A DNA stretch of 64,000 bases from an uncultured Winogradskyella sp. (lineage in GTDB: Bacteria > Bacteroidota > Bacteroidia > Flavobacteriales > Flavobacteriaceae), in NCBI RefSeq assembly GCF_937958655.1, contig NZ_CALGNH010000001.1:1-64000 (forward strand), read 5' to 3'. A program made the position numbers and the translations under genes. Positions 6,551 through 43,899 of the stretch are shown here, in pieces (within the stretch, counting starts at the first letter, position 1; the number at the start of each line of letters is the position of its first letter). Below the pieces are notes generated by a model. It had not been told where the DNA came from and made no database searches. It worked only from the letters and a program-made list of their open reading frames with translations.

Positions 6551-6669
6551 CGTCAGTTCGAGTGATTCTGACTTTTCTGTCAGAATAGTATCGAGAACCT
6601 TAGTAACTAAACATTGTTTCTCGATACAAATCTTAAGCTCCTAAAAGCCTAAAATTCACTCGAAATGAC
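6551..6669. repeat. Nested inverted repeat, family with 42433-42552
   Basis: The outer arms are GTCAGTTCGAGTGAT (6552-6566) and ATTCACTCGAAATGAC (6654-6669). The inner arms are GTATCGAGAA (6588-6597) and TTCTCGATAC (6618-6627), a perfect 10-bp match. A further small hairpin, TCTGAC/GTCAGA (6567-6584), lies between the left outer and inner arms. The same outer and inner arm sequences recur in the same order at 42433-42552. There is no coding capacity. It may end the macroglobulin transcript. Confidence 0.8.
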
Positions 6670-35766: not shown

Positions 35767-35991
35767 GTGGGTTTATTTTAAGAAAGCTGAATTTAATGAT
35801 TAATGCATACATCTTAAAATTTGATAACAAAGTTTAACAGATTAAGATTTCTTCTTTTGCTTGCGATTTTGTTTGTTTATTTTTGATAAAACTTACAGAT
35901 ACTGTCAGCTTAAGGGTAGTCCAACAATCTTAGAATAATATTTTTAAACAGTTCGGCTGCGCTCAATGTTATATACTAAAAAATATTAATG

Positions 35992-36012
35992 AGATTTCCG
36001 TTTTCACGGAAA
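35992..36012. repeat. Hairpin repeat ATTTCCG/CGGAAAT
   Basis: ATTTCCGTTTTCACGGAAAT sits just before the aminopeptidase start. Similar hairpins precede sufD (GATTCCCGCTTTTGCGAGAA, about 57662) and the DUF59 gene (TTTCCGCTTCTTAAGGAAA, about 62417). Translation from the ATG at 35989 would run through it, which argues for the downstream start at 36034. Confidence 0.6.
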
Positions 36013-36033
36013 TTGAAAAACAAACTTTTTCAA

Positions 36034-37326
36034 ATGAAATACAATCCAATAGACTCAAAACTCTTTACAAATAACCGTAAAAACTTCATGGCGCAAATGA
36101 AGCCTAGTAGTTTAGCGGTGTTTAACTCCAACGATATTTATCCAATTAGTGCAGACAGTACTATGCCGTTTGAGCAACACAGAGATATCTTTTATTTAAG
36201 TGGTGTGGATCAAGAAGAAAGTATTTTAGTGCTGTTTCCAGACTGTCCAAAAGAAAAGCATCGCGAGATTCTATTCTTAAAAGAAACCAACGACCATATC
36301 GCCATTTGGGAAGGTGAAAAACTAACCAAAGAAGCGGCTTTAAAAACCAGTGGCATTAAAACGGTATATTGGTTACAGGACATGGAAAAGGTAATGTTTG
36401 AACTCATGACGCAATGTGATACGGTTTACATTAATACCAACGAACATTACAGAGCTAATGTAGAAACTGAAACGCGTGAAGACCGTTTTACCAAATGGCT
36501 GAAAAATAAATATCCTGCCCATTCTGTAGCTAAGAGTAATCCTATTTTACAACGTCTGCGTTCTGTTAAAAGTCAAATAGAATTAGACCTCATCCAAAAG
36601 GCCTGTGATATTACCGAAAAAGGCTTTAGACGCGTGCTTAATTTTGTAAAACCAGATGTTTGGGAATATAATATTGAAGCCGAATTTATGCACGAGTTCC
36701 TCAACCATCGTTCTAAGGGTTTTGCCTACACTCCTATCATAGGCTCAGGAAACAATGCTAATGTCTTACATTACATAGAGAACAACCAACAGTGCAAAGC
36801 TGGAGATTTAATTTTAATTGATGCGGCTGCTGAATATGCCAATTACGCCAGTGATATGACGCGTACCATACCAGTTTCTGGTCGTTACAACAACAGACAG
36901 AAGGCCGTGTATAATGCTGTAAATCGTGTTAAAAATGAAGCTACTAAAATGCTAGTTCCCGGAACTCTTTGGGAGCAATACCACATCGAAGTTGGTAAAC
37001 TCATGACCTCTGAATTATTGGGCCTTGGGCTTATTGATAAAGCCGATGTACAAAACGAAAACCCAGATTGGCCAGCCTATAAAAAATACTTTATGCATGG
37101 TACCTCTCACCATATGGGATTAGACACCCACGATTATGGTTTACTACACGAACCCATGAAAGCCAACATGGTCTTTACCGTAGAACCTGGTATTTATATC
37201 CCAGATGAAGGTTTTGGTATTCGTTTAGAGGATGATGTGGTGATACAAAACTCTGGTGAACCTTTTAATTTGATGCGGAATATCCCAATTGAGGTTGAGG
37301 AGATTGAGGATTTGATGAATTCTTAA
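36034..37326 (+). CDS. Aminopeptidase P family protein (Xaa-Pro aminopeptidase)
   Basis: 430 residues from ATG 36034 (MKYNPIDSKLFTNNRKNF); an ATG at 35989 is rejected because it lies in a hairpin repeat. The N-terminal creatinase-like domain (YLSGVDQEES) precedes the pita-bread metallopeptidase domain. Its metal ligands are visible: the two Asp in LIDAAAEYANYASDMTRT, His in MHGTSHHMGLDTHD, and Glu in FTVEPGIYIP and RLEDDVVI. It removes N-terminal residues before proline, in the cytoplasm (no signal peptide). A restriction gene follows 23 bases later on the same strand. Confidence 0.95.
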   Translation: MKYNPIDSKLFTNNRKNFMAQMKPSSLAVFNSNDIYPISADSTMPFEQHRDIFYLSGVDQEESILVLFPDCPKEKHREILFLKETNDHIAIWEGEKLTKEAALKTSGIKTVYWLQDMEKVMFELMTQCDTVYINTNEHYRANVETETREDRFTKWLKNKYPAHSVAKSNPILQRLRSVKSQIELDLIQKACDITEKGFRRVLNFVKPDVWEYNIEAEFMHEFLNHRSKGFAYTPIIGSGNNANVLHYIENNQQCKAGDLILIDAAAEYANYASDMTRTIPVSGRYNNRQKAVYNAVNRVKNEATKMLVPGTLWEQYHIEVGKLMTSELLGLGLIDKADVQNENPDWPAYKKYFMHGTSHHMGLDTHDYGLLHEPMKANMVFTVEPGIYIPDEGFGIRLEDDVVIQNSGEPFNLMRNIPIEVEEIEDLMNS

Positions 37327-37349: not shown

Positions 37350-38060
37350 ATGAGTGAAATAGAATTATTAGCTATCATTACAGATTATTTTAAAGAAAAA
37401 ATCTTTGATAACCATAGGATTAATGCGTTAAAAACGCATTCAAAACTTAAATCTTACAAGATAAACCCGATTATTGTAAAATATCTATCTAAAATTTTAG
37501 AAGATGATTTCACAGCAATTGGTATAGCTAAAGCTTTATATTATCCGAGAATTTTAGGAACTTCCATTAATACTTCTTTTGGCACAAGAATTCAGAATAT
37601 GTTTGTTGAACTTAAATTAGCTGAAGGTTCTTTAATCAAAGGAATGGATATTGAATTTGTTGATAAAATTGACAATAGAAAGAAATGGTGTCAATTAAAA
37701 TCTGGACCTAACACTATTAACTCAGAAGATGTGAAACCGTTGCTTCGAAAATTCTCTACAGTTACTAATTTAGCTAGAACTAATTCAATGAATCTTAATA
37801 ATTCAGATTTAATTTTAGGTGTTTTATATGGTGAAGAAGATCAGTTAAGTCAACATTATAGAAAGATTGATGAAGAATTTCCAGTTATAATTGGCAAAGA
37901 ATTTTGGCATAGAATAACTGGGTTTCCAGATTTTTACAATGCACTTGTTTCAAATCTAGATGAAATGATTCTTAGTCTTGACACTGAAGATTTTTTCAAA
38001 AAAGGTTATATGGCATTAGTTAAAGAAATAGAATCTTCAGATTTATTTGATTTGGAATAA
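37350..38060 (+). CDS. Type II restriction endonuclease, Eco47II/Sau96I-like
   Basis: 236 residues. FTAIGIAKALYYPRILGTSI, NTSFGTRIQNMF and the nuclease core GMDIEFVDKID...KKWCQLKSGPNTIN match my knowledge of the RE_Eco47II family (GGNCC/GGWCC cutters). The PD-(D/E)xK site is Asp100/Glu102 with QLK (Lys117). It is visibly more A+T-rich than the aminopeptidase gene before it. It converges on the cytosine methyltransferase gene, sharing its last 55 bases with it. No promoter of its own is obvious in the 23-base gap, so it may be read from the aminopeptidase transcript. Specificity is inferred from the family only. Confidence 0.85.
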   Translation: MSEIELLAIITDYFKEKIFDNHRINALKTHSKLKSYKINPIIVKYLSKILEDDFTAIGIAKALYYPRILGTSINTSFGTRIQNMFVELKLAEGSLIKGMDIEFVDKIDNRKKWCQLKSGPNTINSEDVKPLLRKFSTVTNLARTNSMNLNNSDLILGVLYGEEDQLSQHYRKIDEEFPVIIGKEFWHRITGFPDFYNALVSNLDEMILSLDTEDFFKKGYMALVKEIESSDLFDLE

Positions 38061-39277
38061 AGTTTATTCAAAAACTTAACAATAGAATAACCAACCTCTA
38101 AACCTAAATTACAAGGAACAGCATTACCTATTTGTTTATACTGTTGAGAAACTGAACCTGCAAATTTCCATTCATCTGGAAAAGTTTGTATTCTAGCATA
38201 TTCGCGCACAGTAAAAGGTCGTGTCTCATCAGGGTGACATCTTTCGGTTTGTTTTTGAGCAGGACTACACGTCAATGTTAAGCTTGGTTCATCCCATCCA
38301 ATCCTTCTAGCCATACCTGTTTTTCCTCCGCCTAAATAAAAACTTTTACCCATAAATTCTTTCTGAATATCTAATGGTAAATCTCTCCAATAGCCTTTTG
38401 GCGGAACTAAATCTAAAACTTCTTTTTTATGCTGAGGATATTTTGAACCTTCTGATTTTGGAACATTAGAATCATATAAATCACCTTTCTTAAGAGCGTC
38501 AACTAAATTATAAATTCTATTATATGGTTTCGGATATTCATAAGATACATCAATATCTTTTCTAATACCGACCAAAATTAATCGTTCTCGCTTCTGAGGA
38601 ACATTATAATTAATAGCTTTTAAAACTTTATATGGTACAACATTATAACCGATTTCATCAAGAACAGATAGCATCCCTTGAAGTGTTTTTCCTTTTTCAT
38701 GAGATAATAAACCTTTTACATTCTCACCAATACAAATGGGAGGTTTAACCTCATTAATTACTCTAGCAAATTCATAAAACAGAGTTCCTCTAGCGTCTTC
38801 TAAACCCAATTTTTTTCCTGCATAACTAAATGCTTGACAAGGAAATCCTCCAGTTACTACATCAACTTCATTTTTATATTTTTCAAAATTAAAACTCTTA
38901 ATATCACCTTCTAAAACATTCCAATTTGGTCTATTTTCTCTAAGTGTTTGGCAAGCCCATTTATCTATTTCATTTAAAGCAACACACTTTATTCCTGCTT
39001 TTTCTAAACCAATCGCAAGCCCACCTGCACCTGCAAATAATTCTAAAACTTTGTATTGTTGTAATGGTTTTACAAAATTATTCGTAGTCTCTTCGGTCTC
39101 ATTATCAAATAACCCAATTAAAGAATCAATTTCAGATTTTTTATAAATCCTATAATCGCTAATAGGTTCTCTAGCTGCAATTAATTTTTCATCTCTATCC
39201 CATCTTCTTAGTGTCTCTTTACTTTTTCCTAGTTTTTCCGCAGCTTCTGAAAGCGAATAATAATCTTTGATAACCAT
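38006..39277 (-). CDS. DNA (cytosine-5) methyltransferase with N-terminal HTH domain
   Basis: 423 residues from ATG 39277 (a TTG at 39286 is in frame but less likely). Residues about 5-55 are a MerR/excisionase-type helix-turn-helix (YYSLSEAAEKLGKSKETLRR). The methyltransferase motifs are in order: I LELFAGAGGLAIGLE, IV GGFPCQAFSYAG (Cys147), VI GENV, VIII QKRERLILVG, IX FTVREYARIQTFPDEW and X QIGNAVP. It should protect host DNA against the convergent restriction enzyme, with which it overlaps by 55 bases. The HTH may let the enzyme repress its own promoter, as some C5 methyltransferases do. Confidence 0.95.
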   Translation of the reverse strand: MVIKDYYSLSEAAEKLGKSKETLRRWDRDEKLIAAREPISDYRIYKKSEIDSLIGLFDNETEETTNNFVKPLQQYKVLELFAGAGGLAIGLEKAGIKCVALNEIDKWACQTLRENRPNWNVLEGDIKSFNFEKYKNEVDVVTGGFPCQAFSYAGKKLGLEDARGTLFYEFARVINEVKPPICIGENVKGLLSHEKGKTLQGMLSVLDEIGYNVVPYKVLKAINYNVPQKRERLILVGIRKDIDVSYEYPKPYNRIYNLVDALKKGDLYDSNVPKSEGSKYPQHKKEVLDLVPPKGYWRDLPLDIQKEFMGKSFYLGGGKTGMARRIGWDEPSLTLTCSPAQKQTERCHPDETRPFTVREYARIQTFPDEWKFAGSVSQQYKQIGNAVPCNLGLEVGYSIVKFLNKLYSKSNKSEDSISLTNAI

Positions 39278-39302
39278 ATTACACAACCTTATACATTGGT
39301 TA

Positions 39303-39360: not shown

Positions 39361-39541
39361 TTAATTATCAGAAGAATTACACCTTAAAACAAACAACCGT
39401 TCCAGACTTTCTTTAGTCGATAAGTTCTCCACATGCCAAGAAAACGTAGTTTTTGAGCCCTTTTCCCAAATACATTTAAAATCTTCTAGTGCATTGTACT
39501 CACTCACAAACACTTGGTTACCAACTTTATTTTGTTGTCTG
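39361..39541 (-). pseudogene. Remnant of a Dam-type adenine methyltransferase (C-terminal 55 residues)
   Basis: Read on the minus strand, this encodes QQNKVGNQVFVSEYNALEDF, then KCIWEKGSKTTFSWHVENLS, then TKESLERLFVLRC and a stop at 39361. It matches residues about 182-232 of the intact Dam-like protein at 41697-42401 (QQSKAGHQVFISEYNAPEDF and so on) at roughly three residues in four. The match stops at about 39541, exactly where a different, opposite-strand fragment begins. The N-terminal 180 residues, including DPPY, are missing, so it cannot be active. Confidence 0.85.
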
Positions 39542-39700
39542 CTGCAAGGAATTTCTAAAAATCAGCTCTCAGAAATGAAGCAATATAATGTACAACTAGT
39601 TGTTCCAAAAGCTTATTTGTCTAGTTTTCCACAAGAATATCGTACTGATATTTTAATACTTGAACAATTTGTAAATAAGGTAACCCACTCACAATTGTAA
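39539..39700 (+). pseudogene. Remnant of an EcoRII-C-like type II restriction endonuclease (C-terminus)
   Basis: The plus-strand frame reads LLQGISKNQLSEMKQYNVQL, then VVPKAYLSSFPQEYRTDILI, then LEQFVNKV, with a stop at 39698-39700. The GISxNQxxEMxxxxVQLVVP block is what I recall from the C-terminal end of EcoRII-C-type restriction enzymes. Only about 53 residues survive. The 5' boundary coincides with the end of the dam remnant, so the two pieces were joined by a rearrangement. The upstream codons from a TTG at 39494 are an antisense reading of the dam remnant, not protein. Confidence 0.6.
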
Positions 39701-39739
39701 ACAGTATTATTGAAAGTAATTTAATAGGTTAAATAATAC

Positions 39740-39973
39740 CTAAAATAAATCATGATTTCCATATTTTAAATAATAGTCCAATTCAAAGGTTTGCCCTTCA
39801 TCAACCTCTAAATCCTTTGCAAAAGCCATGCTGACCTGTCCAGTTTTTAGTTGATATATTCTAGCTTTTGATCTAATGCCTGCTTCTATAAAGTTTAAAA
39901 CAACATAAAGTTTTTCAAAACTTTCGTTTGGTACTTGATATTTTACAATTTGTCCGCGTCTTGTTGGTCTCAT
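39740..39973 (-). CDS. Small hypothetical protein in the restriction-modification island
   Basis: 77 residues: a basic start (MRPTRRGQIVKYQVP), then predicted beta strands (KLYVVLNFIEAG, KARIYQLKTG) and an acidic end (LEVDEGQTFELDYYLKYGNHD). The G-x-IVKYxxP...LYVVL pattern recalls a family of small Bacteroidota proteins that I associate with mobile or DNA-modification loci; this is memory, not a search. It lies between two dam remnants. The ORF is intact with an ATG. Function unknown. Confidence 0.5.
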   Translation of the reverse strand: MRPTRRGQIVKYQVPNESFEKLYVVLNFIEAGIRSKARIYQLKTGQVSMAFAKDLEVDEGQTFELDYYLKYGNHDLF

Positions 39974-40046
39974 AATAAGTCGTTTTACATAAATTTAGAT
40001 AGATAGACCTCACAAGTCAACATACAATAAGTATCAAAAAAATCTA

Positions 40047-40110
40047 TTATTTAACAAATACAAATAACCGCTCCAAAGCAACCTTAACTAACCTTTTCAA
40101 GTTCTAAAGC
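40047..40110 (-). pseudogene. Short, decayed remnant of a dam 3' end
   Basis: The minus strand reads NLKRLVKVALERLFVFVK and then a stop (40047-40049), with an in-frame stop just before NL. The intact Dam-like protein ends NLSTKLALERLFVFGG. At the DNA level ACCGCTCCAAAGCAAC compares with ACCGTTCCAAAGCTAAC in the intact gene. It is short, so chance cannot be fully excluded, but it is the third such 3' end within 2.4 kb and on the same strand. Confidence 0.5.
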
Positions 40111-40224
40111 ACAAAATTCTTATTCAAACAGCTTAAAAGCTACAACCACTTAGACAATCCGCAAACCCAATTACCACGACCTTGTCTGAGCTTTTTAAAA
40201 ATAAAATCTCACCATAGTAATCAA

Positions 40225-40313
40225 TTAGCCTTGTTTCATTACGTAAAAGTAAATATTTTACCCTTGTTTTGTTACAAATATTTAATATATTTACCTTTGT
40301 TTTATTACAAATA
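40225..40313. repeat. 33-bp-period tandem repeat upstream of the DUF4143 ATPase
   Basis: Two 24-base copies (40257-40280 and 40290-40313) differ at two positions: TTTACCCTTGTTTTGTTAC and TTTACCTTTGTTTTATTAC, each followed by AAATA. A third, weaker copy in the same 33-base register begins near 40225 (AGCCTTGTTTCATTAC). The last copy contains the promoter -7 box TACCTTTG. Confidence 0.8.
40269..40299 (+). promoter_or_regulatory. Promoter of the DUF4143 ATPase gene
   Basis: TTG (40269-40271), a 20-base spacer and TACCTTTG (40292-40299) match the Bacteroidota consensus. Transcription would begin near 40306, which places the real start codon downstream at TTG 40330 and not at ATG 40231. Confidence 0.65.
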
Positions 40314-40329
40314 CGATAAATTAGAGCTG

Positions 40330-41694
40330 TTGAATCATAAAAGACACATCTATAAAGTGCTTAGGCAATGGAAAACTAACCCTAAACGTAAACCTCTTGT
40401 TCTTAGAGGAGCAAGGCAAGTTGGTAAAACTACAGCTGTTAATCATTTCTCTAAAAACTACGATCACTATATAAGTCTCAACTTGGAGCGTCCACAAGAT
40501 GCAGATTATTTTCAAAATTATAAAGATGTAAAAACACTGGTAGACGCACTGTTTTTGGAGCACAACATATCTGTAAAAGTCATATCAAAAACACTACTTT
40601 TTATTGATGAAATACAAGAATCCCCAGAAGCAATCGCATTATTACGCTATTTTTATGAAGATCTACCTCAACTACATGTTATCGCGGCAGGCTCTTTACT
40701 AGAGCATGTTATGGATAAGGTAAAAAAATTTCCGGTTGGTCGTGTCTCTTATTTATATGTGCATCCTTTAAATTTTTTAGAATATTTGGAGGCCAAAGGT
40801 CAAAATCAGGCTTTAGAAGCGCTTTATCAAATTCCATTACACGATTTCGCGCATACCACCTTAAAAAAGTTATTTCATGAGTATGCTATTATCGGTGGAA
40901 TGCCAGAAGTAGTAAACACATATTTAGAACAAAATACATTAACCGCTTTACCTGAAGTCTACGAAAGTATATGGCTAACCTATAAAGATGATGTAGAAAA
41001 ATATGCGAACAACAATACAAATGCGGTAATTATAAAACACATAATGGATACGGCTCATTTGTATATGGATGAGCGTATAAAATTTCAAAACTTTGGGAAT
41101 TCAAACTATAGGTCTAGAGAAGTGGGAGAAGCTATGCGAAATCTAAATGATGCACGTGTTATTCAATTAATTTATCCCACTACGGTTATAGAACCACCCA
41201 TAAAACCCGATATAAAAAAATCGCCTCGCTTGCAATTTTTAGATACTGGTTTGGTAAATTATGAATTAAATATTCAAGCAAGTATGCTGGTCTTGGACGA
41301 TTTAAGTACGGCTTATAAAGGTGCTATAATTCCACATTTAATTACGCAAGAGTTACTTTCTTTGAACACTTTAAACTATAAAAAGCCTAACTTTTGGGTA
41401 AGAGAAAAAACGCAATCATCTTCTGAAGTTGATTTAGTAGTACAATACAAAGACAAAATTATTCCGATAGAAATAAAATCTGGTAAAGAAGGGAAGTTAA
41501 AATCACTACATCAATTTGTAGATCGTAGTAATCACCCTTATGCCGTACGTATGTATTCTGGAAAATTTAGTATTGAAGAGCATACCACTCCAATGGGCAA
41601 AAAACCGTATTTGCTTATGAATTTACCTTATTATTTAGGTACAAAACTTGAAGACTATATAGACTACTTTGTTACCAATCATCAATTAAAATAG
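40330..41694 (+). CDS. AAA ATPase with DUF4143 domain
   Basis: 454 residues from TTG 40330 (LNHKRHIYKVLRQWKTNPKR). The frame is open back to ATG 40231, but those 33 codons are a translation of the 33-bp repeats and lie upstream of the promoter. Walker A is LRGARQVGKTT and Walker B LLFIDEIQES, followed by IAAGSLLEHVM and GRVSYLYVHPLNFLEYL. The C-terminal DUF4143 part carries a nuclease-like EVDLVVQYKDKIIPIEIKSG (D/E...ExK). Such proteins are common, poorly understood and often seen in mobile or defence regions. It converges on the dam gene with 2 bases between stops. Confidence 0.88.
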   Translation: MNHKRHIYKVLRQWKTNPKRKPLVLRGARQVGKTTAVNHFSKNYDHYISLNLERPQDADYFQNYKDVKTLVDALFLEHNISVKVISKTLLFIDEIQESPEAIALLRYFYEDLPQLHVIAAGSLLEHVMDKVKKFPVGRVSYLYVHPLNFLEYLEAKGQNQALEALYQIPLHDFAHTTLKKLFHEYAIIGGMPEVVNTYLEQNTLTALPEVYESIWLTYKDDVEKYANNNTNAVIIKHIMDTAHLYMDERIKFQNFGNSNYRSREVGEAMRNLNDARVIQLIYPTTVIEPPIKPDIKKSPRLQFLDTGLVNYELNIQASMLVLDDLSTAYKGAIIPHLITQELLSLNTLNYKKPNFWVREKTQSSSEVDLVVQYKDKIIPIEIKSGKEGKLKSLHQFVDRSNHPYAVRMYSGKFSIEEHTTPMGKKPYLLMNLPYYLGTKLEDYIDYFVTNHQLK

Positions 41695-41696
41695 AT

Positions 41697-42401
41697 TTAC
41701 CCTCCAAAAACAAACAACCGTTCCAAAGCTAACTTAGTCGATAAATTCTCCGCATGCCAAGAAAAGGTGGTTTTTGCATCTTTTTCCCAAATGCAGGTAA
41801 AATCCTCTGGCGCATTGTATTCACTTATAAAAACTTGGTGACCTGCTTTGCTTTGTTGTTTGCACCAATCCCAAAAAACGTCATGATCAAAACCATCGCG
41901 ATACTTTGTAGTGGATGCATAAGGTGGATCACAATAGATGATACTGTGTTTAGGAACATCTAATTCGAGATAAGATTTACAAGACAGTTCTACACCTTCT
42001 AGTTTTGGGACTTGCTTGGTGATATTGCGATAATGTTCGCCCCAATAATCGCGCTTGCCTTCTTTATCGCGTCTATAACCTGCAAACCATTTGCCACCAA
42101 ACGAGTTAAAGCCAACATAACCGACTAGGTGTTTTGGGTATTGGTCTTGGTTGTTTTTTATGTGCTTATACTCATCCTCGCTTACCAATTGTGGTGGATC
42201 CCAATTATCGTAAATTAAGGCTTGCCACATCGCCATGAGTTCTTGGTGTTGATCGTTGGCAATACGTATGCCATCCACCTTGTCTATCATGTTCATGCCT
42301 CCAGCAAAGGGTTCAAGATAGGCTTGGTTGGCTTGTCTATCCTTTAGAATAATAGGTAATAAATCTTTGGCAAAGCGTGCCTTACTTCCCATGTACTTCA
42401 T
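41697..42401 (-). CDS. DNA adenine methylase, D12 (Dam) class
   Basis: 234 residues. MKYMGSKARFAKDLLPIIL carries the SAM-binding YxGSK motif, YLEPFAGGMNMID the acceptor loop, and IIYCDPPYASTTKYRDGFDH the catalytic DPPY (residues 158-161). It methylates adenine N6. No cognate restriction gene adjoins it, so it is probably an orphan or the survivor of a lost system. It is shorter than E. coli Dam and resembles phage or mobile-element versions. Truncated relatives of its 3' end lie at 39361-39541 and 40047-40110. Recognition site unknown. Confidence 0.92.
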   Translation of the reverse strand: MKYMGSKARFAKDLLPIILKDRQANQAYLEPFAGGMNMIDKVDGIRIANDQHQELMAMWQALIYDNWDPPQLVSEDEYKHIKNNQDQYPKHLVGYVGFNSFGGKWFAGYRRDKEGKRDYWGEHYRNITKQVPKLEGVELSCKSYLELDVPKHSIIYCDPPYASTTKYRDGFDHDVFWDWCKQQSKAGHQVFISEYNAPEDFTCIWEKDAKTTFSWHAENLSTKLALERLFVFGG

Positions 42402-42432: not shown

Positions 42433-42552
42433 CGTCAATTCGAGTGAGTTTTACCATTGAAATGAGAAAAACTTGTATCGAGAATCGAGACTTTAATTTA
42501 TCAACCTGTTCTCGATACGATTTTTCATTCTTCAAAATCACTCGAACTGACG
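42433..42552. repeat. Nested inverted repeat, second copy of the 6551-6669 family
   Basis: The outer arms are CGTCAATTCGAGTGA (from 42433) and TCACTCGAACTGACG (to 42552). The inner arms are GTATCGAGAA (42475-42484) and TTCTCGATAC (42509-42518), identical to the inner arms of the other copy. Minus-strand codons across it form an open frame from 42664 to 42398, but this is repeat sequence, not a gene. Confidence 0.85.
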
Positions 42553-42594: not shown

Positions 42595-43899
42595 TTATTC
42601 CGTCTTTTGTTTTGGTTGCACAAGAGACGTAACGACTAAAGCTAATAAGGCTGGTAAAACCCAACCTAAACTATGCTTTGCTAGTGGTATAAAATCGGTG
42701 GTTTTTTTTAATCCTTCAGAAGGACTTATAAAACCAATCACATCTGGTATGCTAAAGATAAACGTTACTATAACCACAGCTCTAAAAATTAATGGAGTTG
42801 CTAATTTTTCAGGTAATACATTCAAAAAAATTAATATAATAGTGATGGGATAAATACATAACAAAACGGGTATAGCAACCACAACAATGGAGTTAAAATC
42901 GAGCTGACCAACACCAATACCAGCAATACAAGCAATAATTGCTGTAACCACATAAGCCGTTTGCGATTTATGAAACAAGCCTCTAAAATAATCTGCTGTA
43001 CCTGCAACAATACCAATAGCCGTTGTAAAACAAGCTAAGGAAATGAGCACACTTAAAACCGTGTTTCCAAATTCACCTAAGGATGCGATACTAATGCCTC
43101 TTAATAAATTAGCACGTTGCATATCTGAATTTAACTTTGTGTCAACCTGAATTTCAGAACCATAATACGCTCCTACAGAGATTAAACCTGCGTAAATGAT
43201 GAATAAACCCGTACCTGCTATAAATCCTGATTGTCGTATAAGTTTTCGTTTAGATTCAAACTGACTCACCTTCATATTTTTAAAGTTCAGGGACACGATA
43301 ATCACCGCACCAACCACCACCGCTCCAATGGCATCAAAGGTTTGATAGCCTTCTAAAATTCCGATGACAATGGGTGTTTCAAAAGTTGAAAGTCTTGGTG
43401 TAAATGACGAAGAGGACAGGCCAATACCAATAACGGCCAAAAGCATAATGACAATAAATGGCGTTAAAAACTTTCCGATCAAATTCAAAATTTTTGAACG
43501 GTTGAGCACAAAGACTAAAACCAAAGTAAAGTAAATAGCACTAGTTAATAATGGGCTTGTTCCAAAAGCAGGATGTATGGCAATCTCGTGGGTGGCTGCA
43601 GCAGTTCTAGGTGATGGAATAGCAACCGCAATCACGTAAATAATAATACAATAAATTAAACTAAAGGTCGGCGATACTTTTTTACCAAAATCGTATAAAG
43701 TGCCTTGCAGTTTCGCATGTGCTAAAATCCCGATAATTGGAATCACCACAGCCGTAATCATAAAACCTATAGTGACCCAAAACCAATTGTCACCGGCATT
43801 ATAACCTAATAATGGTGGTAATAACAAGTTTCCTGCACCAAAAAAAAGCGAGAATAAAGCGAAACTGGTCACTAAAAGTTCTTTACGCTGAATGCTCAC
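42595..43899 (-). CDS. brnQ: Branched-chain amino acid transporter, BrnQ/LIVCS family
   Basis: 434 residues with about twelve membrane helices. The family start FALFSLFFGAGNLLLPPLLG is clear, as are FDAIGAVVVGAVIIVSL and the Ser/Gly-rich helix breaks. It imports leucine, isoleucine and valine with Na+ or H+. The start is GTG 43899 (VSIQRKELLV), directly after the stop codon of the preceding serine-hydrolase gene, so the two are probably translationally coupled. A palindrome lies beyond its 3' end. Confidence 0.93.
   Translation of the reverse strand: MSIQRKELLVTSFALFSLFFGAGNLLLPPLLGYNAGDNWFWVTIGFMITAVVIPIIGILAHAKLQGTLYDFGKKVSPTFSLIYCIIIYVIAVAIPSPRTAAATHEIAIHPAFGTSPLLTSAIYFTLVLVFVLNRSKILNLIGKFLTPFIVIMLLAVIGIGLSSSSFTPRLSTFETPIVIGILEGYQTFDAIGAVVVGAVIIVSLNFKNMKVSQFESKRKLIRQSGFIAGTGLFIIYAGLISVGAYYGSEIQVDTKLNSDMQRANLLRGISIASLGEFGNTVLSVLISLACFTTAIGIVAGTADYFRGLFHKSQTAYVVTAIIACIAGIGVGQLDFNSIVVVAIPVLLCIYPITIILIFLNVLPEKLATPLIFRAVVIVTFIFSIPDVIGFISPSEGLKKTTDFIPLAKHSLGWVLPALLALVVTSLVQPKQKTE

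Follow-up and report, generated by a model that had tools for sequence, protein, structure and literature searches.

Gene-end stubs in a defence-gene hotspot between pepP and brnQ of Winogradskyella

Core defence hotspots of Pseudomonas aeruginosa, in which diverse defence genes lie between fixed core genes, are in part without detectable mobile genes, and the available sections of the report name homologous transfer, which would leave no mobile-element scars, as a possible route and leave the matter open (PMC10250203). For the type VI effector-immunity loci of Vibrio cholerae, where modules undergo sequential displacement (Kirchberger 2017, PMC5361080), the sections available propose that homology anchors a new module on one side and that its other side is joined illegitimately, and describe older 3' pieces, including a shifted effector 3' end, as pushed back and kept. 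One homologous and one illegitimate end are also the outcome of homology-facilitated illegitimate recombination as followed experimentally; in the available part of that study, the introduction gives micro-homology of 3 to 10 base pairs (bp) for most reported joints, and three of the four joints in the study's own Escherichia coli events were without it (PMC3240628). Here we describe a locus in a 64,000-bp stretch of DNA (henceforth the window: contig NZ_CALGNH010000001.1 of an uncultured Winogradskyella sp., positions 1 to 64,000), in which the interval between pepP (35989..37326, + strand) and the branched-chain amino acid transporter gene brnQ (42595..43899, - strand) holds restriction and other genes, an intact Dam-type adenine methyltransferase gene (dam; 41697..42401, - strand) and two truncated dam 3' ends, and we compare it with the same site in relatives, which are referred to by G numbers.

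This locus resembles the P. aeruginosa hotspots in placing diverse defence genes between fixed core genes and differs from them, as far as the accessible text of PMC10250203 describes them, in bearing scars of another kind, namely stubs of gene ends. Like the V. cholerae loci it appears to combine a homologous with an illegitimate end; unlike them, where the pieces kept are, in the sections available, mainly immunity genes of one system (PMC5361080), it retains end pieces, all of them short, from unrelated boundary genes on either side of the hotspot. The two kinds of end that we propose are those of homology-facilitated illegitimate recombination, although the accessible part of PMC3240628 concerns laboratory events in a single species and here we infer the events from genome comparison between species. 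The initial annotation of the window had seen a candidate for an undescribed process; in the parts of both papers available, one-sided homologous and illegitimate exchange is already published for other loci (PMC5361080, PMC3240628). The process is of a known kind, and its scars are unusually legible here. A literature search, mostly of journals open without subscription, gave, among the titles listed, none that dealt with stubs of gene ends at defence hotspots or with this locus in Winogradskyella.

Changing cargo and gene-end stubs between pepP and brnQ

The site was compared in 69 oriented stretches (two of them from G009 and one of them the window), which gave 54 resolved intervals with both anchors, from the window and 53 relatives. 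pepP was matched in 34 of 36 same-genus relatives and in 29 of 32 in a second set (in which G015 was repeated), in synteny with brnQ, which in relatives adjoins dam or cargo. The resolved intervals range from 94 to 14,078 bp (median 2,841.5): in G006 the anchors are 94 bp apart, and in G076, G077 and G029 there is space for dam only. dam is present in 30 intervals, lysC (an amino acid kinase gene with an ACT domain, read as aspartate kinase) in 34, both in 14 and neither in four. The remaining cargo belongs, by Pfam, to type I and type II restriction-modification, AbiE, AbiH, AbiC-like, AIPR/Z1/DUF4420 and Schlafen-group helicase families, together with helix-turn-helix (HTH), NUDIX, HNH and other genes. 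Diverse defence-type genes thus lie between pepP and brnQ or dam in many genomes, as in a core defence hotspot, and, with the defence role taken from family names, the interval is a defence-gene hotspot. The range of lengths and the changing cargo exclude a single locus decaying in place. The initial annotation had suggested a turnover hotspot at which methyltransferase and restriction modules are repeatedly gained and lost, and an alignment across relatives for unoccupied sites and alternative cargo; both states were found, which bears the suggestion out.

Some cargo boundaries in this interval carry leftover ends of neighbouring genes. We masked the intact genes in 66 of the 69 stretches (all except G075, G082 and the second G009 piece), compared what was left with seven families of neighbouring genes, and obtained 198 raw hits in seven genomes (many genes hitting each stub) and none in a reversed-gene control. 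The hits, together with a G028 dam stub that was masked in this search and found by separate searches, define eight gene-end stubs in six genomes, four of dam, two of pepP and one each of lysC and DUF2188: the window has two dam stubs, G028 one of dam and one of pepP, G061 one of dam, G009 one of pepP, G023 one of lysC and G072 one of DUF2188. The seventh genome with raw hits, Winogradskyella ouciana, has a second full dam and no stub. G028 and G061 are closely related, and their dam stubs probably represent one common event. All eight stubs are 3' ends, which is expected in part because pepP, DUF2188, lysC and dam point their 3' ends towards the cargo. The idea that the dam 3' segment marks every boundary is ruled out by the stubs of pepP (two), lysC (one) and DUF2188 (one), which mark other boundaries; a dam stub was seen in just three of the 30 resolved intervals with dam. 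Self-comparison of the intervals also showed direct repeats that have nothing to do with gene ends (in G004, G017, G060, G061, G068, G075 and G089, and one 20-bp pair in the window), which were set aside.

Four comparisons pair a state before the formation of a stub with a state after it. In the first, G034 has intact pepP followed by a gene, c51, that resembles the FokI cleavage domain under the cut-off, and G009 has pepP, AbiEi, AbiEii, a pepP stub and c51; here 235 bp are collinear with G034 at 88% identity, and the first 28 bp are the pepP end. In the second, the DNA that follows the dam stub of G061 matches the DNA that follows intact dam in G073 from the first base (252 bp, 70%, E 2e-23), and the corresponding DNA of G028 matches that of G073 in two pieces of 52 and 56 bp. 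Further along, G061 is 94% identical to the post-dam DNA of G071 (E 2e-61), and G084 and G026 give 83-85%. To the sequence that follows their own intact dam, the post-stub DNA of G028 and G061 had no more than chance matches of 7-10 bases; in both genomes the ATPase gene described below now stands between dam stub and intact dam. In the third, some 3.6 kb of G023 run collinear with G011 at 77.5% up to the last part of lysC, the stub, where G023 meets dam. The fourth sets G012, G036 and G070, with dam intact, against the first remnant of the window.

That remnant (remnant 1; 39385..39542, - strand; 158 bp) corresponds to codons ~181-232 of dam. Intact dam matches 39386-39542 on the same strand at 127 of 157 positions (81%; blastn, E 5e-38), and a translated search of the window's own genome gave E 1.3e-21. 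A truncated dam relative, which the initial annotation had placed at about 39361-39541, is therefore real; as a fragment of 59 codons it did not reach any family in the Pfam or NCBIfam scans, so that a profile search did not identify it as Dam. The shorter relative, remnant 2, is likewise real and covers less than the 40047-40110 first given: it lies at 40055..40086 (- strand), matches own dam at 27 of 32 positions (E 9e-4 over 64 kb) and the dam end of G004 at 28 of 29, and its score against dam 3' ends was reached by none of 1000 dinucleotide shuffles of 39543-40230. The three dam 3' ends share one strand, as had been noted, namely the minus strand. Remnant 2 stands upstream of the ATPase gene, as do the dam stubs in G028 and G061.

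Remnant 1 is joined, near 39540 as first proposed, to the 3' end of an EcoRII-C-type restriction endonuclease gene on the opposite strand (39545..39700, + strand; Pfam PF09019, E 7.2e-9, profile positions 120-165 of 165). This tail had matches in five other genomes among 397 family genomes searched, and the three that were aligned show 75-79% protein identity. The joint falls within about 7 bp at ~39539-39545 when the sequence is aligned with 37 dam genes and with EcoRII genes from three other genera, dam similarity ending at 39542 and EcoRII similarity beginning at ~39545; it is of the illegitimate type, with at most ~4 bp (CTGC) possibly common to both sides. The window can be aligned with G012, G036 and G070, which have a whole dam at this place, from the start of the neighbouring methyltransferase gene (M, below) across the flank to the dam end; there the alignment stops and the EcoRII-C tail begins. 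In G035 a possible 12-bp dam end beside the M gene is too short to count and stands outside the eight stubs.

Some of the cargo is restricted to this site. The ATPase gene was found in four of 68 genus genomes (E <= 1e-20) and an EcoO109I-family restriction gene (R) in five of 68 (E <= 1e-15), in every case at this locus. Such confinement is unlike free transposition, which would scatter the genes; exchange via shared flanks would not scatter them. The R protein of the window is 93% identical to that of G012 and 44-46% to those of G035, G036 and G070, and the M protein beside it is 89-94% identical to the window's in all four; the R allele seems, from these identities, to have been swapped under a constant M.

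Proposed one-sided recombination and its rivals

It is probable, in our judgement, that cargo changes at this site by one-sided recombination: one end of the incoming DNA would recombine through homology within a boundary gene and the other would be joined illegitimately, and no mobile element of its own was detected in the hotspot. Cargo would be exchanged between Winogradskyella species through ordinary DNA import: an incoming chromosomal fragment would pair by homology with a boundary gene at one end (pepP on the left; on the right lysC, dam or brnQ) and be joined at the other with little or no homology. The boundary genes are oriented with their 3' ends towards the interval, so that a joint falling inside one of them would leave its last tens of bases as a stub; the intact copy would then be a hybrid or the allele of the other parent. 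At 39539-39545 of the window two cargo states would have met, a left one of pepP, R, M and dam 3' end and a right one of EcoRII-C tail, ORF77, remnant 2, ATPase, dam and brnQ; remnant 2 would stem from another such exchange, in which the ATPase gene brought along a dam end of its own. The stubs, the joint of the window, the before/after pairs and the confinement of cargo to this site are observed; we infer that the anchoring was homologous, that uptake was by transformation, which way the DNA moved and in what sequence the events took place, and either half of the window may be the newcomer.

A similar geometry would arise by long target duplication, if cargo inserted at a boundary gene's 3' end and copied tens to hundreds of bases of the target, with stub and intact end identical at first and diverging later. 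Restriction-modification genes can insert in this manner, leaving restriction cargo flanked by a repeated target sequence; the mechanism and its use for restriction-modification units are said to have been worked out by Kobayashi's group. It suits the cases with cargo between two copies of a gene 3' end, and predicts that a stub should be closest to its own neighbouring gene. Yet the stubs here are mostly closer to alleles of other genomes than to the adjoining copy: for six of the seven with an own intact copy, the best match in a best-of-many comparison was the gene of another genome. Own dam ranked 10th of 38 for remnant 1, 8th of 38 for remnant 2, 2nd of 38 in G028 and 3rd of 38 in G061, and own pepP 54th of 63 in G028 and 36th of 63 in G009; G023 has no own lysC for comparison. 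The clearest case is the G028 pepP stub, which matches G026 at 36 of 36 positions versus 26 of 32 for own pepP, lies behind a gene that succeeds pepP in G001, G061 and G071, and does not adjoin the resident pepP end. The G009 pepP stub matches the pepP of G000 at 27 of 27 positions and its own pepP end at 23 of 27. Moreover, the five pairs seen in self-comparison are 81-87% identical, none near 100%. We therefore regard target duplication as unlikely.

Other alternatives fare worse. Some integrases attach at tRNA genes or the ends of other genes, and a site-specific or transposable element with gene 3' ends as its attachment sites would account for both pepP stubs beginning 27-40 bp before the gene end and for stubs shorter than an even spread of break points. 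Stub starts vary, however, between genes and within dam (~167, 60 and 92 bp from the end), and the matches to ATPase and R in genus genomes are confined to this locus. The stretches contain 254 open reading frames (ORFs) in 102 clusters; among the 68 proteins covered by profile scans, which passed over some single-genome and small cargo ORFs, none had an integrase or transposase family above the cut-off, so that a recombinase acting on the site, which the initial annotation had proposed to look for, did not emerge. The window contains no tRNA gene. The element reading is disfavoured and, to us, highly improbable. We give as little credence to old tandem dam copies that decayed in place with the cargo irrelevant. 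A two-dam state does exist: in W. ouciana (L156) two full-length dam genes stand close together in direct orientation and flank lysC, one of them between cargo and lysC, so that dam itself can be present twice, and recombination between these copies, which would delete lysC, may explain the genomes with dam and without lysC. Nevertheless, the remnants lie at cargo boundaries, one of them fused to a restriction gene tail, the same pattern is seen in pepP, lysC and DUF2188, and the before/after pairs contradict decay in place.

Several results weigh against one-sided recombination. The DUF2188 stub of G072 has its own copy as best match, first of nine, as target duplication predicts, and the allele ranks come from a best-of-many comparison (with up to 62 others) of short, partly decayed sequence, for which reason the narrow ranks of the G028 and G061 dam stubs carry little weight. 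The approximately unbiased (AU) test, on a tree from which one short dam row (G082) was left out, did not reject remnant 1 and own dam as sisters (p 0.179, 158 columns), as target duplication would have it, nor remnant 1 with G009 dam (p 0.378); the allele argument for the window thus leans on matching end types and neighbours rather than on the tree. Of all joints, only that of the window was mapped against both parents. ComEC is present in the window's own genome, and since the identical search was positive in ten of 14 control genomes this says little on uptake. Mosaic identity of dam ends in the G028, G061 and G073 group and the six allele matches would fit homologous exchange at the other end, but distance correlations gave a weak or flat picture: in pepP, lysC and brnQ there was no trend on nearing the hotspot; those of dam fell from 0.41-0.44 to 0.29 towards the 3' end versus brnQ and were flat versus pepP, and because correlations were low throughout this test may have little power. 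Lastly, the stubs, with lengths entered by hand, are shorter than an even spread of break points predicts (Fisher p 0.0019; p 0.05 with breaks allowed only in the last 400 bp).

Short stubs are not predicted by plain one-sided recombination alone, and could result from the need for a long upstream homologous anchor or from later loss of long repeats. A further reading, which we hold to be doubtful, is that breaks are not random and that exchange is directed, for instance through breakage at the meeting points of transcription ends, into the final tens of bases of convergent genes, as an element-free way of building hotspots that is possibly general in marine Bacteroidota. If so, each exchange would add cargo, destroy no gene and write a readable stub.

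Genes and repeats of the window locus

The left anchor, pepP, whose product we take to be M24 Xaa-Pro aminopeptidase-like, has its 3' end towards the cargo. It is followed by the R gene, for an EcoO109I-family type II restriction endonuclease (37350..38060, + strand; Pfam PF14511, E 6.3e-27), and by the M gene, for a C5 cytosine methyltransferase with a helix-turn-helix-like N-terminal part (38006..39286, - strand; Pfam DNA_methylase, E 2.9e-86), in which MerR and HTH_17 scored slightly under the Pfam cut-offs. R and M converge, with a 55-bp overlap at the 3' ends (38006-38060). Between the EcoRII-C tail and remnant 2 lies ORF77 (39740..39973, - strand; 77 amino acids), for which Pfam and NCBIfam scans and the search of family genomes gave no family or function; weak matches were seen in three of the 397 family genomes besides its own.

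The ATPase gene (40231..41694, + strand) matches AAA_14 (E 2.4e-26) and DUF4143 (E 3e-19) in Pfam, and its true start is probably near 40321, judging from where relatives begin to align. Upstream of its coding region, two direct ~20-bp copies of operator-like appearance (40256..40309, + strand), of the type TTTACC...TTACA, were read from the sequence; similar repeats lie upstream of the ATPase relatives in G017, G061 and G028, and the pair looks like an operator travelling with the gene. The intact dam belongs to the D12 type (Pfam MethyltransfD12, E 1.2e-13), its translation contains DPPY, presumably the motif of this enzyme class, and its C-terminus was matched in 38 of 68 genus genomes, its own included. 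The right anchor, brnQ, matches Pfam PF05525 (E 9.8e-92). The lysC of the site is absent from this position in the window, and the best matches elsewhere in the same genome are just 33-36% identical to the locus lysC.

Identity to the window protein ranges across relatives from 48 to 90% for brnQ and from 80 to 94% for pepP; because that of brnQ varies widely while that of pepP stays high, brnQ itself may have been replaced in some genomes. In G075 (L129), pepP is in two frames beside an otherwise empty pepP-dam-brnQ site. A dispersed palindromic repeat, TTCTCGATACG, has paired inverted copies at 42474-42519 and 6587-6628, so that one palindromic copy sits between dam and brnQ; it has five matches (<=1 mismatch) in the window, a number reached in none of 100 shuffles.

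What the stubs record

By what route cargo enters and leaves defence hotspots that lack mobile elements is, in the available part of PMC10250203, an open question for Pseudomonas. In Winogradskyella, some past cargo swaps appear to be readable from sequence through the gene tails left over. Such stubs can be counted and compared with candidate donors, which makes the question of exchange testable in any genus with enough genomes.

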